Shown one piece after another: positions 26,838 to 63,875 of a stretch of DNA of 64,000 nucleotides. The notes under the pieces are model-generated. The model did not search any database and was not told the origin of the DNA. It was given only the letters and a program-made list of their open reading frames with translations. The DNA is taken from positions 1,567,572 through 1,631,571 of the forward strand of contig NZ_LN875035.1 of NCBI RefSeq assembly GCF_001282685.1, read 5' to 3'. The position numbers and the translations under genes are program-made. Source of the DNA: Niameybacter massiliensis. Its GTDB lineage: Bacteria > Bacillota > Clostridia > Lachnospirales > Cellulosilyticaceae. Each line of letters begins with the position of its first letter. The first letter of the stretch is position 1.

Positions 26838-26909
26838 CTGGGCTGGAAGGATTCGAACCTTCGGATGCAGGAGTCAGAATCCTGTGCCTTACCGCTTGGC
26901 GACAACCCA
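26838..26909 (-). tRNA. tRNA-Gln(CUG)
   Basis: Acceptor TGGGTTG/CAGCCCA, anticodon loop TTCTGAC (anticodon CTG), T-arm AGGTTCGAATCCT. It differs from the neighbouring Gln(UUG) copies mainly in the anticodon loop and acceptor and has its own promoter. Confidence 0.95.
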
Positions 26910-26927
26910 TTATGTTTGACTTTTATA

Positions 26928-26956
26928 ATTTTATCATAAATTTTCTAAAAACTCAA
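26928..26956 (-). promoter_or_regulatory. Promoter of tRNA-Gln(CUG)
   Basis: On the minus strand, TTGAGT (26956-26951), a 17-base spacer and TAAAAT (26933-26928) precede the gene by about 20 bases. The tRNA is thus a separate unit from the nine-gene array upstream. Confidence 0.65.
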
Positions 26957-26963
26957 GAGAGCA

Positions 26964-26993
26964 AAAAAAATCGACTACCTTAGTAGTCTTTTT
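26964..26993 (-). terminator. Terminator of the nine-tRNA array
   Basis: GACTAC and GTAGTC with flanking A8/T6 form a short stem with a CTTA loop, directly after the last Gln(UUG) gene. Confidence 0.75.
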
Positions 26994-27001
26994 TCTTCAT
27001 A

Positions 27002-27073
27002 CAGGGCTAGGAGGATTCGAACCTCCGAATGCAGGAATCAAAATCCTGTGCCTTACCGCTTGGCGATAACCCT
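27002..27073 (-). tRNA. tRNA-Gln(UUG), copy 2
   Basis: Acceptor AGGGTTA/TAGCCCT; anticodon loop TTTTGAT gives TTG. The sequence is identical to the copy at 27451-27522. Confidence 0.95.
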
Positions 27074-27079
27074 ATATAG

Positions 27080-27153
<74 letters not shown>

Positions 27154-27157
27154 ATAA

Positions 27158-27228
27158 AGCGGGTGATGGGAATCGAACCCACGTGGCCAGCTTGGAAGGC
27201 TGGAGTTCTACCATTGAACTACACCCGC
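27158..27228 (-). tRNA. tRNA-Gly(UCC), copy 2
   Basis: Acceptor GCGGGTG/CACCCGC; anticodon loop CTTCCAA gives TCC. Identical to the copy at 27695-27765. Confidence 0.95.
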
Positions 27229-27265
27229 ATAAATTGCTTCATGTATAATATTAAATTTTAAAAGA

Positions 27266-27346
27266 TGCGGGTGAAGGGAGTCGAACCCCCACGCCAATGG
27301 CGCTAGATCCTAAGTCTAGTGCGTCTGCCAATTCCGCCACACCCGC
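27266..27346 (-). tRNA. tRNA-Leu(UAG)
   Basis: Class II tRNA with a long variable arm (GCGCCATTGGCGT). Acceptor GCGGGTG/CACCCGC; anticodon loop CTTAGGA gives TAG. It lies between the two halves of the array. Confidence 0.95.
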
Positions 27347-27349
27347 ATA

Positions 27350-27422
27350 TGAGCCACCGGAGGCTCGAACTCCGGACCACTTGATTAAAAGTCAAGTGCT
27401 CTACCAACTGAGCTAGTGACCC
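27350..27422 (-). tRNA. tRNA-Lys(UUU)
   Basis: Acceptor GGGTCAC/GTGGCTC, with U-G pairs; anticodon loop CTTTTAA gives TTT. Confidence 0.95.
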
Positions 27423-27450
27423 AAATTTAATTGTTTGTCCTACTGGACAG

Positions 27451-27522
27451 CAGGGCTAGGAGGATTCGAACCTCCGAATGCAGGAATCAAAATCCTGTGC
27501 CTTACCGCTTGGCGATAACCCT
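27451..27522 (-). tRNA. tRNA-Gln(UUG), copy 1
   Basis: Acceptor AGGGTTA/TAGCCCT; anticodon TTG. It belongs to the upstream half of the array. Confidence 0.95.
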
Positions 27523-27538
27523 ATATGTAAAAACTAAG

Positions 27539-27613
<75 letters not shown>

Positions 27614-27616
27614 ATA

Positions 27617-27690
<74 letters not shown>

Positions 27691-27694
27691 AAAG

Positions 27695-27765
27695 AGCGGG
27701 TGATGGGAATCGAACCCACGTGGCCAGCTTGGAAGGCTGGAGTTCTACCATTGAACTACACCCGC
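27695..27765 (-). tRNA. tRNA-Gly(UCC), copy 1
   Basis: Acceptor GCGGGTG/CACCCGC; anticodon TCC. It is the first gene of the nine-tRNA array. Confidence 0.95.
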
Positions 27766-47794: not shown

Positions 47795-48661
47795 ATGATG
47801 ATGCCAAAGATTAAACTGGATATTAAACGTGCACTTTTTATTGTTATAGGTACTTTTTTAATAGCTTTATCTACAAATGCTATTCTTATTCCTAATCATC
47901 TATTGAGTGGCGGCGTAAATGGTATTGCAACCTTCTTACATTTCATCTTTAATTGGAACGTCAGTATACTTGTTCTCCTCTTAAATATTCCACTATTTTT
48001 ATTAGCATTCTTTTTTTTAAAACGTCACTTTCTTGTTTCAAGCCTCTTTGGTATGTTGATGCTTTCCTTTTGGCTACAAGTAACAAAAGATATACAAATT
48101 GCTACAACCAATACCCTTAGTATCATACTATTGGGTGGTCTACTCAATGGAGTAGGTAGCGGTATTATCTTTAGAGGAGATGGTTCTACTGGTGGTTCTG
48201 ATATCGTCGCTAAAATCGTTAATAAAAACTTTTCTTTGAGCATGGCTACTGTCAATATGATTATTAATGCTATCATTATTAGTTGTTCTATTCTCTTCTT
48301 CGGATTAGACTTATCTGTATTAACCCTTGCAACCATGTTTGTAGCTAGTAGAATTACCCATTTTGTAGTAGATGGTCTTAATTACAAACGTACATTATTT
48401 ATTATTACCACCAAAGACCACTACCAACCCATGGCCAATGATATTATGTCTGAACTTCTCCGCGGCGTGACTATCATACCGGCAAAAGGTGCGTACACTA
48501 AAGAGGATAAATTTATTCTCTATACTACAATTAGTATTCAAGAAGTAGCCAAAATTAAGCACATCGTTGCTGAACATGACCCAACCGCCTTTGTAACCAT
48601 AACCCCAACCGCTCAGGTTATTGGAAACGGAAAAGGATTCTTGCCAAATATCTCAGATTAA
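47795..48661 (+). CDS. YitT family membrane protein
   Basis: 288 residues with about five membrane helices (IVIGTFLIALSTNAILIPN, LNIPLFLLAFFFL, TTNTLSIILLGGLLNGVGSGIIF and others). The conserved GGVNGIATFLHF and RGDGSTGGSDIVAK motifs belong to YitT/DUF161, and a C-terminal DUF2179 cytoplasmic domain starts about residue 220. Function unknown, perhaps transport. Three ATGs lie in tandem; GGGGG favours that at 47801 by spacing, so the first two residues are doubtful. Confidence 0.92.
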   Translation: MMMPKIKLDIKRALFIVIGTFLIALSTNAILIPNHLLSGGVNGIATFLHFIFNWNVSILVLLLNIPLFLLAFFFLKRHFLVSSLFGMLMLSFWLQVTKDIQIATTNTLSIILLGGLLNGVGSGIIFRGDGSTGGSDIVAKIVNKNFSLSMATVNMIINAIIISCSILFFGLDLSVLTLATMFVASRITHFVVDGLNYKRTLFIITTKDHYQPMANDIMSELLRGVTIIPAKGAYTKEDKFILYTTISIQEVAKIKHIVAEHDPTAFVTITPTAQVIGNGKGFLPNISD

Positions 48662-48669
48662 CTCTACAG

Positions 48670-48697
48670 AGTAGGATAAGTATCCTGCTCTTTTTGC
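48670..48697 (+). terminator. Terminator after yitT
   Basis: GAG-AGGATA and TATCCT-CTC form the stem followed by TTTTT on the plus strand, 9 bases after the stop. Transcription of the adjacent non-coding RNA therefore needs its own start. Confidence 0.8.
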
Positions 48698-48727
48698 TAT
48701 AAGTACGTAAAATAAATATTGGGTTAA

Positions 48728-49402
48728 GTGTGAGGGCATGTAGGCAAGCTTATTGTATTCCAACTTCTAGTCCTCAACTCTTAAGAGAGGCTAATTTCAT
48801 TTCATCAAACTAACGGTCAAAACTCAGAAAAGAAGTTCACTTTTCTTCAAACATTTCCCTAAAACCAGTTTGATTTCATTCCCTAAGCCTCTCTAAAAAG
48901 CCTGTGGAAAAGTTTCCATACAATAACTTCCCTTACAACCCATCACATAATAGACCCCTTCTGGTATAAAGGTAGCTAAACTACATAATCTATTTTCTAA
49001 ACATCCTTCATGTGAAAGTGCCTAATCATTCCTAAGTTGAGATAAAGAGCAAACTATGAAGGAGTATTATCAAGCACTAGGAAGTATTCTCTCTAAAGAA
49101 GAGACGTTTGCTCTTCTGTCTTCTCTTCGGCATACCATTGGAAGTGAAAACTTACTTCTCTGAATAGAAAAGAGCGGTGATGCGTGGGTGACCTCCATGT
49201 AGCTTTTTTTCGAGGATGGACTTAGAGTGTGTTAACGAATATGAAGGAAGGGGGTTGTGCGAGTGTTTGCTGTGTGCCCCTCAGAGTAAGCGTTAGCGAG
49301 TTTTCTCATATCCTAACTGAATAAGAGTTTACACAGTCTTAGTCCATTTGAGCAAAAGCGAAAGGGAGGCACCCATGTAGTGCCGACCGGACGACCTCAC
49401 AT
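48728..49402 (+). ncRNA. Candidate large structured non-coding RNA, ~675 nt
   Basis: The 820-bp gap between yitT and trpS has no convincing ORF but many nested helices. Ends pair: 48728-48735 with 49395-49402 (8 bp). 5' domain: 48784-48792/48886-48894 (9 bp), 48804-48811/48867-48874 (8 bp), 48826-48832/48840-48846 (7 bp). Middle: 49045-49054/49106-49115 (10 bp), and AAGT-GAAA-ACTT at 49142-49153. 3' domain: 49175-49196/49365-49385 (20 pairs, one bulge, one mismatch), 49216-49236/49327-49347 (18 of 21) and 49239-49244/49306-49311. Wobbles such as 49084-type G-U pairs at 49182/49378 and 49184/49376 work only on the plus strand. Class unknown. Confidence 0.75.
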
Positions 49403-49447
49403 ACTAAAAGTTTTTACTCTATAAAATATTTACTTTAAAAGTTAAAA

Positions 49448-49471
49448 AGGCTGCCATCATGGCAGCCCTTC
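49448..49471 (-). terminator. Terminator after trpS
   Basis: AAGGCTGCC and GGCAGCCTT-type arms with an ATCAT centre, followed by TTTTTAA on the minus strand. Confidence 0.85.
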
Positions 49472-49484
49472 CTTCTAGCTTTAA

Positions 49485-50492
49485 TTAACGTACAACTGGT
49501 GGGAATCCCACTTTCTTTTGTACTTTTCTAAGTGTTTTTGTTGCAAGATAGTTAGCTGTCTCTGCATTTTTCTTAATGATTCCATCAATATAAGCTTTAT
49601 CTTTTGAAAGTTCTTCAAAACGTTTGTGAAGAGGACGTAGTTCTTCTACTACAGCTTCCCCTACTCTCATTTTGAAGTCACCATATCCTTTACCTTCAAA
49701 CTCGTTTTGGATAGCTTCCATAGACATACCTGTTACCGCACTATAGATTGTCATCAAGTTACTAATACCTGGTTTTGCTTCTTGGTCAAAGCGTACCAGA
49801 GCATCCGAATCTGTTACTGCACGTTTGAACTTACGGATAATAGTGTCTGGATCATCAATTAATGAGATACTTGCATTATTATCTTCATCTGATTTTGACA
49901 TTTTCTTTGTTGGATCTTGTAGACTCATAATTTTTGCGCCTACTTTACTAATATATGGTTCTGGAATCTTGAAAGTATCGCTATATAAGTTATTAAAGCG
50001 TGCTGCAATATCACGTGCAAGCTCGAGATGTTGTTTTTGGTCTACGCCTACTGGTACAAGGTCTGTTTGGAAAAGTAAAATATCTGCTGCCATAAGTGTT
50101 GGATATGTGAAAAGTCCAGAGTTAATATTCTCTGCATGTTTAGAAGACTTTTCTTTAAATTGTGTCATACGGCTAAGCTCACCCATATAAGTATAGCAAT
50201 TTAAAATCCATGCAAGTTCAGCATGAGCTGGTACATGTGATTGATAATAAATAACGTTTTTTTCTGGATCTAAACCAGCAGCAATATATTGCATTAATAA
50301 GTTTCTAGCATTTTTTCTAAGTGTAGCTGGATCTTGTCTTACAGTAATCGCATGCATATCAACTATACAATAAAGACAGTTATATTCATCTTGTAAGTTT
50401 GTCCAGTTTTTAAGGGCACCTAAATAGTTCCCAAGTGTAATAACACCTGAAGGCTGCATCCCACTAAAAATGACCTTTTTTTCGTTTTCCAT
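49485..50492 (-). CDS. trpS: Tryptophanyl-tRNA synthetase
   Basis: 335-residue class I synthetase that charges tRNA-Trp. The HIGH-equivalent is in TLGNYLGALKNW (about 19-30) and the KMSKS loop is at 197-201. Other family marks are YPTLMAADILLF, VPVGVDQKQH and GAKIMSLQDP. Length is normal. It diverges from luxS with only 121 bases between, too short for a T-box leader. Confidence 0.98.
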   Translation of the reverse strand: MENEKKVIFSGMQPSGVITLGNYLGALKNWTNLQDEYNCLYCIVDMHAITVRQDPATLRKNARNLLMQYIAAGLDPEKNVIYYQSHVPAHAELAWILNCYTYMGELSRMTQFKEKSSKHAENINSGLFTYPTLMAADILLFQTDLVPVGVDQKQHLELARDIAARFNNLYSDTFKIPEPYISKVGAKIMSLQDPTKKMSKSDEDNNASISLIDDPDTIIRKFKRAVTDSDALVRFDQEAKPGISNLMTIYSAVTGMSMEAIQNEFEGKGYGDFKMRVGEAVVEELRPLHKRFEELSKDKAYIDGIIKKNAETANYLATKTLRKVQKKVGFPPVVR

Positions 50493-63751: not shown

Positions 63752-63784
63752 AACTTCAATCTAATACTAGTGTCTTTATGACCG

Positions 63785-63850
63785 AAGGGAATGAATGTCT
63801 CCCTTGGACTTAGTATCCAAAACTGCTCTTACAAGCTGATGACTTCTGCC
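63785..63850 (+). promoter_or_regulatory. Fluoride riboswitch (crcB motif) aptamer
   Basis: P1 is AAGGGA/TCCCTT (63785-63805) with an AUG-containing loop. The conserved core AAACTGC (63820-63826) and GCTGATGAC (63835-63843) matches the crcB motif. The P2 stem is GCT/AGC, and loop bases AA-GTC can pair with GACTT as in the aptamer pseudoknot. The canonical GAUG reads AAUG here, and a hairpin (63804-63820, TTGGA/TCCAA) is inserted after P1. The downstream antiporter is a known target class for fluoride switches. Confidence 0.75.
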
Positions 63851-63875
63851 ACAAGCAGGGTTATCAGCTTTTTTT
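63833..63875 (+). terminator. Riboswitch-controlled terminator
   Basis: AAGCTGAT (63833-63840) pairs with ATCAGCTT (63863-63870), followed by T5. Its 5' arm is part of the aptamer core, so ligand binding should block the terminator and allow read-through (an ON switch). Confidence 0.85.

Follow-up and report, generated by a model that had tools for sequence, protein, structure and literature searches.

The locus and its repeat

The interval described here lies in a window of 64,000 nucleotides (the whole stretch of DNA that was analysed), between two genes. To its right, on the minus strand, is trpS (49485–50492; TIGR00233, E 1.5e-112). To its left is a plus-strand gene (47795–48661) that is called yitT-like only from a weak, below-cutoff match, so of the placement 'between yitT and trpS' given in the first-pass annotation, the second half is secure and the first provisional. 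There is a terminator on each side. An intrinsic-terminator-like site belonging to the yitT-like gene (48668–48691, plus strand) directly precedes the interval, and a terminator-like hairpin (49449–49467, minus strand) directly follows it, with a T-run on the minus strand too, pointing back toward the interval. Elsewhere the window contains a fluoride riboswitch aptamer (63778–63855, plus strand; 35.9 bits, cut-off 34) and a cluster of ten tRNA genes (26838–27765, minus strand), both identified with Rfam.

The first-pass annotation had read positions 48728–49402 as a candidate structured non-coding RNA of ~675 nt, transcribed from the plus strand and similar in size and context to ROOL, GOLLD or OLE. 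The helices that it listed are there. Checked base by base, the two ends pair in all eight positions (48728–48735/49395–49402, one pair being G-U) and the middle stem in all ten (49045–49054/49106–49115), and the long arm on the right comprises a helix of 20 pairs (49175–49196/49365–49385; 16 Watson–Crick and 4 G-U, with one mismatch and one bulge), then 18 pairs of 21 (49216–49236/49327–49347), then six of six (49239–49244/49306–49311). The five positions named as G-U are correct, and the interval contains, as had been said, no gene: no open reading frame exceeds 42 aa. What was overlooked is that further copies of the interval occur throughout the genome, and that the repeat has its borders further out, at ~48708–49436; 42 aa is also the length of the longest frame within these borders.

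When a 731-base query was compared by BLAST with the organism's own genome (4.57 Mb, 11 contigs), 45 matching pieces were found including the window copy, mostly 75–93% identical. Merged by hand they amount to about 30 places, of which 29 besides the window were retrieved. A typical copy consists of a common 5' module, optional middle parts and one of two right modules, A or B; the window copy carries type A, and some few copies are fragments. The type B module, used as a query in turn, gave 13 pieces, mostly at places found before. Of 18 copies measured, 17 are 0.62–0.96 kb long and one is 0.31 kb. Seven of 19 copies contain open frames of 83–98 codons (98 being the largest outside the window copy, in which the frame is broken); we take these to be chance frames rather than genes, because their places differ, or their sequences diverge past the common stretch. 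The interval, then, is one copy of a dispersed, apparently non-coding repeat of ~0.7 kb with inverted-repeat ends.

The window copy, ~0.73 kb, spans 48708–49436 by the alignment of dispersed copies. Comparison of copies places the left terminal inverted repeat, TAAAATAAATATTGGGTTAAGTGTGAGG, at 48708–48735 (plus strand), and the right terminal region, which ends AAATATTTACTTT, at 49395–49436 (minus strand). The left repeat has the form AATAAATATTTGG...GTGAGG, and the right end is its close inverse in type B copies and its partial inverse in type A. Inside these ends, consensus folding defines two long hairpin arms: a left arm (48728–48950) that folds better, and carries its motif, on the minus strand; and a right arm of type A (49172–49388, plus strand), replaced in other copies by the type B arm. 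A conserved motif (48803–48874, minus strand), located by covariance-model matches and covariation, caps the left arm, and a diverged version of it (GUUGUGCGAGUGUUUG...GCGAGUUUUCUCAUAUCC; 49250–49313, plus strand) caps the right, as judged from weak matches in sister type A copies. Between the arms lies a middle region (48951–49139) that contains the 10-bp stem (49045–49115); in an alignment of eight copies, it differs from copy to copy and is partly absent from some.

An apical motif, its distribution and its strand

The motif reads P1, GNNNUUAG, P2, nnUGUYUGA, a P3 hairpin, GAGUU, P2', CGUU and P1'. A weak BLAST match in Cellulosilyticum ruminicola JCM 14822 (genome G016) kept the loops and changed the stems. 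R1, a covariance model built from the core on the minus strand, matched 7 of the 24 genomes of the family, in three of nine genera, with up to 26 copies; 69 matches were aligned, 54 of them distinct. Helix P2, which was missing from the model that produced this first alignment, emerged by eye in the aligned matches (GGCAG/CUGCC, GGUGU/ACACC, GCUCC/GGAGC and others). In the 54 distinct sequences 92.3% of cells are paired, and covariation is 0.570 versus 0.134 when shuffled (0 of 500 shuffles as high) and 0.069–0.118 in slid controls, with changes on both sides in 19 of 21 pairs. For P2 by itself the paired share is 80.1% of cells, and five of its six pairs have compensatory changes; the unpaired cells are largely tandem G-A mismatches at two positions.

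Both R1 and a refined model, R2, were built on sequences of the own family (f1), so the E-values of f1 matches are partly a matter of construction; those of two other families of the order (f5 and f22) and of genome G635, from another class, are not. A broader alignment, made from 98 matches (88 distinct), is 94.6% paired, with covariation of 0.861 versus 0.186 (0 of 500 shuffles as high), values to be read with the knowledge that its 72 loci were chosen by us and that it was fitted to R2, and hence leans to the R2 structure. Changes on both sides occur in 16 of its 16 pairs, a count that 102 of 500 shuffles also reached. The covarying pairs among homologues that the first-pass annotation had looked to are present for the apical motif. 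Across groups the letters kept are GNNNUUAG before P2, UGUYUGA before P3, GAGUU after P3 and CGUU before P1'; the f5 set retains the UGUYUGA/GAGUU part and does not clearly retain the UUAG part. Outside the apex, a CUUAG opposite a CUUAG, with a central U-U mismatch, was noticed by eye in copies from the own genome, genome G002 and g9 genomes and in some f5 copies (loci L128, L124, L143 and L155, as well as own-genome copies).

The motif is multi-copy in three genera of the family, C. ruminicola among them, and weaker in the two other families of the order. With R2, at E up to 0.001, matches came from 16 of 392 genomes in the order: eight in f1 (3–13 copies per genome among the matches listed, no more than 13 candidates being scored in any one genome), seven in f5 (1–3 each) and one in f22. 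Among 398 genomes of the phylum, two gave matches at E up to 1e-4: the own genome and G635, where three motif copies stand in AT-rich intergenic repeats alike over 0.34–0.56 kb. The G635 repeats (L256–L258) have outer arms of the TTTCTTTTGAAAGGTCAAAAGAAAA type. Among the relatives searched there was no second genome of the own genus, and a g1-specific exact pattern had no matches in 84,980 species genomes, the own genome left out. A general exact pattern gave 11 stretches in the species-genome scan, in C. ruminicola and also in bins labelled Clostridia, Bacilli and, once, Gammaproteobacteria. The long motif pattern matched no viral sequence, and BLAST against plasmids and phages gave no match. 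A viral or plasmid origin was considered on account of a 16-letter piece present in five viral contigs and set aside, the surroundings examined showing no further likeness. The g9 genomes contain, in addition, another hairpin repeat, whose conserved apex, CTCCACGCCTACCCACAGCCAAACCCGAGTCGA, lies in variable, nearly perfect stems; this repeat is situated 0.2–1.3 kb upstream of the motif hairpin (L128, L129, L132, L162, L167, L168 and L169; four of the seven from sequence, the rest from BLAST only).

No description of the motif was recognised in the literature searched at the level of main texts. Rfam 15 has no match to the interval at gathering score across the window, nor, for ROOL, GOLLD, OLE and HEARO (which we take to be Rfam families), at E up to 10 within 48600–49600. 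Over the interval at E up to 10, and in 12 related loci at E up to 0.5 and 0.1, Rfam returned only chance-level or unrelated matches, and a known RNA family was set aside as an explanation. Locus L007 has a true T-box elsewhere (Rfam).

Which strand folds? Against shuffles, the plus strand of the interval has a z of -4.7 and the minus strand -5.1, with 0 of 20 shuffles as good in either case; fold energy alone does not tell the strand, because both are equally strong. We therefore counted departures from Watson–Crick pairing, in consensus stems defined without G-U pairs. The 5' module has 9 G-U and 16 A-C when read on the plus strand, and 17:9 on the minus; the type A right arm has 11:4 on the plus strand and the type B right arm 13:2 (p 0.007), the only one of these three tallies significant singly. 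These tallies tend to favour the minus strand for the left arm and the plus strand for the right arms. Consensus energies point the same way, at -61.1 (minus) versus -43.1 (plus) kcal/mol for the 5' module, -65.0 (plus) versus -33.5 (minus) for type A, and -112.1 (plus) versus -88.9 (minus) for type B.

A single large RNA of ~675 nt, transcribed from the plus strand, would account for the strong plus-strand fold and for the preference of the right arms for that strand, but it is very improbable. Folding is just as strong on the minus strand, which also carries the left motif, its right-hand version being on the plus; the middle is variable and the right arms are exchanged between copies, which are dispersed and mosaic. 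Terminators stand on both flanks, moreover, and two further terminator-like sites lie on the plus strand inside the window copy. What survives of the structured RNA first proposed is a real fold, part of which is conserved and covaries; its extent and strand are not supported, and ROOL, GOLLD and OLE, from which the dispersed copies and opposite-strand motifs set it apart, gave no match.

A different possibility is that the motif itself acts as RNA, outward-transcribed arms binding a protein, or protecting or ending transcripts, with mobility merely spreading the motif; this is compatible with the element being mobile. Three further module sets, read on the motif-sense strand, have G-U:A-C ratios of 9:4, 10:6 and 14:3, so that G-U exceeds A-C in all six sets (74:28 in total, from tallies that are not independent events, with p below 0.05 singly in two of the six). 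The motif-sense consensus also folds better than the antisense in 6/6 sets, and the joints keep their sequence across two classes. The excess of G-U suggests that folding takes place on the motif-sense strand. It disappears when genera are compared with one another (13 G-U and 16 A-C cells), and P1 has hardly any pairs other than Watson–Crick, which is unexpected for RNA stems; on both counts the acting form of the fold is at least as likely to be DNA as RNA. The window copy, besides, lies between two terminators, its two promoter-like sites compare with 3.0 expected by chance, and the middle region, where outward promoters would be expected, is not conserved. We consider it unlikely, on balance, that the motif acts as RNA.

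Paired ends and mobility

Both motifs are present at 17 of 30 own-genome loci, and at all 17 the left one is minus-strand and the right one plus-strand; seven of these 17 are loci whose type A right arms were matched at E 0.0035–0.11 only, and the right motif of the window copy was undetected by R2 at E up to 0.5. The elements of G002 are largely unlike those of the own genome in sequence and identical in layout. Of 16 loci there, 12 have both motifs, all 12 minus-left and plus-right, three have the left motif only, and one (0.13 kb) has neither. Thirteen G002 elements have both ends located, AAATAGAAATTTGTC in sequence; 11 of them measure 0.60–0.88 kb, one 1.14 kb and one 0.13 kb. In f5 a second match accompanies the first in three of eight loci, again minus-left and plus-right (E 1e-4 to 8e-4). 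The motif is frequently a lone hairpin in g9; same-direction pairs 2.8–8 kb apart occur in g9 and C. ruminicola, and in one g9 case two motifs flank two host-like genes. The opposite orientation of the two motifs within an element is fixed; that a protein recognises them is what we infer.

Gaps that contain own-genome elements (n=19; flanking ORFs of at least 80 aa) lie between convergent genes in 8 cases, between co-directional genes in 11 and between divergent genes in none. For 18 elements, a strong terminator occurs within 80 nt on 13 of the 26 sides that face the 3' end of a gene, versus 0 of 10 other sides (the rate of the terminator scan in shuffled sequence being 0.3%).

The interval is probably a non-autonomous mobile element, similar to a REPIN or a MITE (both discussed below) and moved in trans. 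Its dispersal, its inverted-repeat ends and its two inverted long hairpin arms with covarying caps are observed directly, the cap being clear in the left arm and diverged in the right arm of the window copy. A non-autonomous transposable unit fits because the element combines paired structures that face outward, inverted ends, and spread through the genome with no encoded protein. The two arms would be its recognition ends. A transposase encoded elsewhere in the cell would bind the folded motif, or the adjoining terminal repeats, at both ends, and the bound protein would move the whole unit. Copies would then persist mainly beside the 3' ends of genes, often past terminators, where the harm they do would be small, and exchange of modules among copies would yield the mosaic. 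Such an element would work in the manner of a REPIN or a MITE; its hairpin arms are five to ten times as large as a REP. The first-pass annotation had named a match to a transposon as a result that would count against it; the repeat is of a mobile type, and no known transposon was matched.

A search of the own genome for a parent element, with the terminal end and up to 3 mismatches, left a few unassigned hits; in G002, no transposase with matching ends lies between the paired ends, which are 0.13–1.14 kb apart. Candidates for an autonomous copy, in G002 or between opposed motifs at L134, L159, L149, L156 and L144, were rejected, the latter judged by eye from their ORF lists, since they contained host-like genes or small or decayed frames only. 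One frame between opposed motifs is a fragment of a Y1 transposase (G016:C16).

How much of the element is needed for movement? An ordinary MITE would be read by a DDE cut-and-paste transposase through its terminal inverted repeats alone, the arms being passengers or plain long inverted repeats. Dispersed copies are what this predicts, and an outer terminal core, AAATARAWATTTG, is common, by eye, to the terminal repeats of the own genome and G002. (At L228 and L229 in G002, both terminal repeats share a change, AAATTG for AAATAG, as if the ends had been homogenised.) Passengers, though, need not have a fixed orientation at each end, as the motif does. The motif extends to g9, f5, f22 and G635, whereas the terminal repeats, compared between two genera only, went undetected when the g9 hairpins were inspected by eye. 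Nor was a target-site duplication detected: in 13 and 17 elements, 30 altogether, there was no clear excess of flank repeats. Of 171 flank settings, the best concerned 2 bases located 9 bases beyond the ends (5 of 13, versus 1.25 expected); a 2-bp target duplication may exist. We judge the ordinary MITE to be somewhat unlikely, a little less so than the RNA role considered above.

A more specific proposal is that long Y1 (IS200-like, RAYT-like) transposases, single-copy in the host, move the unit through single-stranded hairpins. The inverted hairpin pairs resemble those of REPINs (PMC3116915). PF01797 frames of 226–322 aa occur in 7 of 8 motif-bearing family genomes versus 3 of 16 others (Fisher p 0.0023, with length limits set after the list had been seen; with a weaker match of 374 aa in G013 included, the count is 4 of 16, p 0.0078). 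This count is confounded by descent, however. Any PF01797 match at all is found in 17 of the 24 family genomes, and G012 has the motif and no such frame. RAYT genes usually adjoin their repeats, yet no motif was found in the 4–16.5 kb around 11 long Y1 genes, and the Y1 of the own genome, inspected by eye, does not resemble the g3 and g9 ones. These points leave the Y1 route improbable.

If the preferred reading, a non-autonomous element moved in trans, is taken further, these repeats might form a new class in which both ends are recognised in the form of large, folded single strands, the same internal-loop motif capping each of them outward. We put this forward tentatively, as a possibility more likely to fail than to hold. 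It would occur in Clostridia and, outside them, in one or more genomes of a different taxonomic class, and it predicts transposition machinery that binds RNA or single-stranded DNA; at each end, the motif would lie on the strand that runs 3' into the flank. No description of such a class was found in the papers searched. Whatever the machinery, a covarying motif in inverted pairs, without a match in Rfam 15, provides a handle on how repeats that encode no protein move and persist, and the element gives REPINs and MITEs a relative of larger size. It is also a warning that a densely folded stretch between two genes may prove to be a mobile repeat, its motifs lying on opposite strands, and not a single large RNA.

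Comparison with known systems

REPINs are inverted doublets of REP sequences, moved by RAYTs (PMC3116915), and REPs tagged GTAG/CGTC sit between co-directional and convergent genes (PMC3733652). The element resembles these in being non-autonomous and intergenic, in consisting of an inverted pair of imperfect hairpins, and in lying downstream of coding regions. The inverted doublet is the unit at all two-motif loci of G002 (12/12) and of the own genome (17/17); lone hairpins are common in g9. It differs in that its arms are ~200 nt, compared with 20–40 in a REP, and in having terminal inverted repeats. In place of the GTAG/CGTC tag it has a large internal-loop motif, with conserved UUAG and CGUU inside the stem, and a RAYT gene beside the repeats was not observed (0 motifs around the 11 long Y1 genes).

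Bacterial MITEs (e.g. Correia/NEMIS, ERIC, RUP and CIR) are ~100–200 bp and form long stem-loops, and the 5' and 3' sections of CIR fold independently (PMC2229807). The element shares with them terminal inverted repeats, long stem-loops, and multiple copies without an encoded transposase. At ~0.6–0.9 kb, it is larger than their 100–200 bp; no target duplication was detected, and its motif covaries across genera and in a genome of another class. Because size, tag or transposase fails to agree in each case, we assign the element neither to REPINs nor to tagged REPs nor to MITEs.

A survey of non-coding RNAs in 50 genomes lists 250 mobile or repeat candidates, and allows that such folds may act as DNA or as RNA (PMC11109978). 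Its MRSC-65-2 is, like the element, structured and multi-copy; unlike it, MRSC-65-2 has a UYCCGG repeat that is absent from the element motif. The main text, on which this comparison is based, has no mention of Cellulosilyticum or Lachnospiraceae; one of the candidates that it leaves unnamed may overlap with the element. ROOL, GOLLD and OLE, finally, are similar in length and in their dense helices (PMC12286853). The element is distinguished from them by its mosaic, dispersed copies without an Rfam match, by motifs that stand on opposite strands, and by its distance from tRNA genes, the nearest one found being more than 20 kb away.
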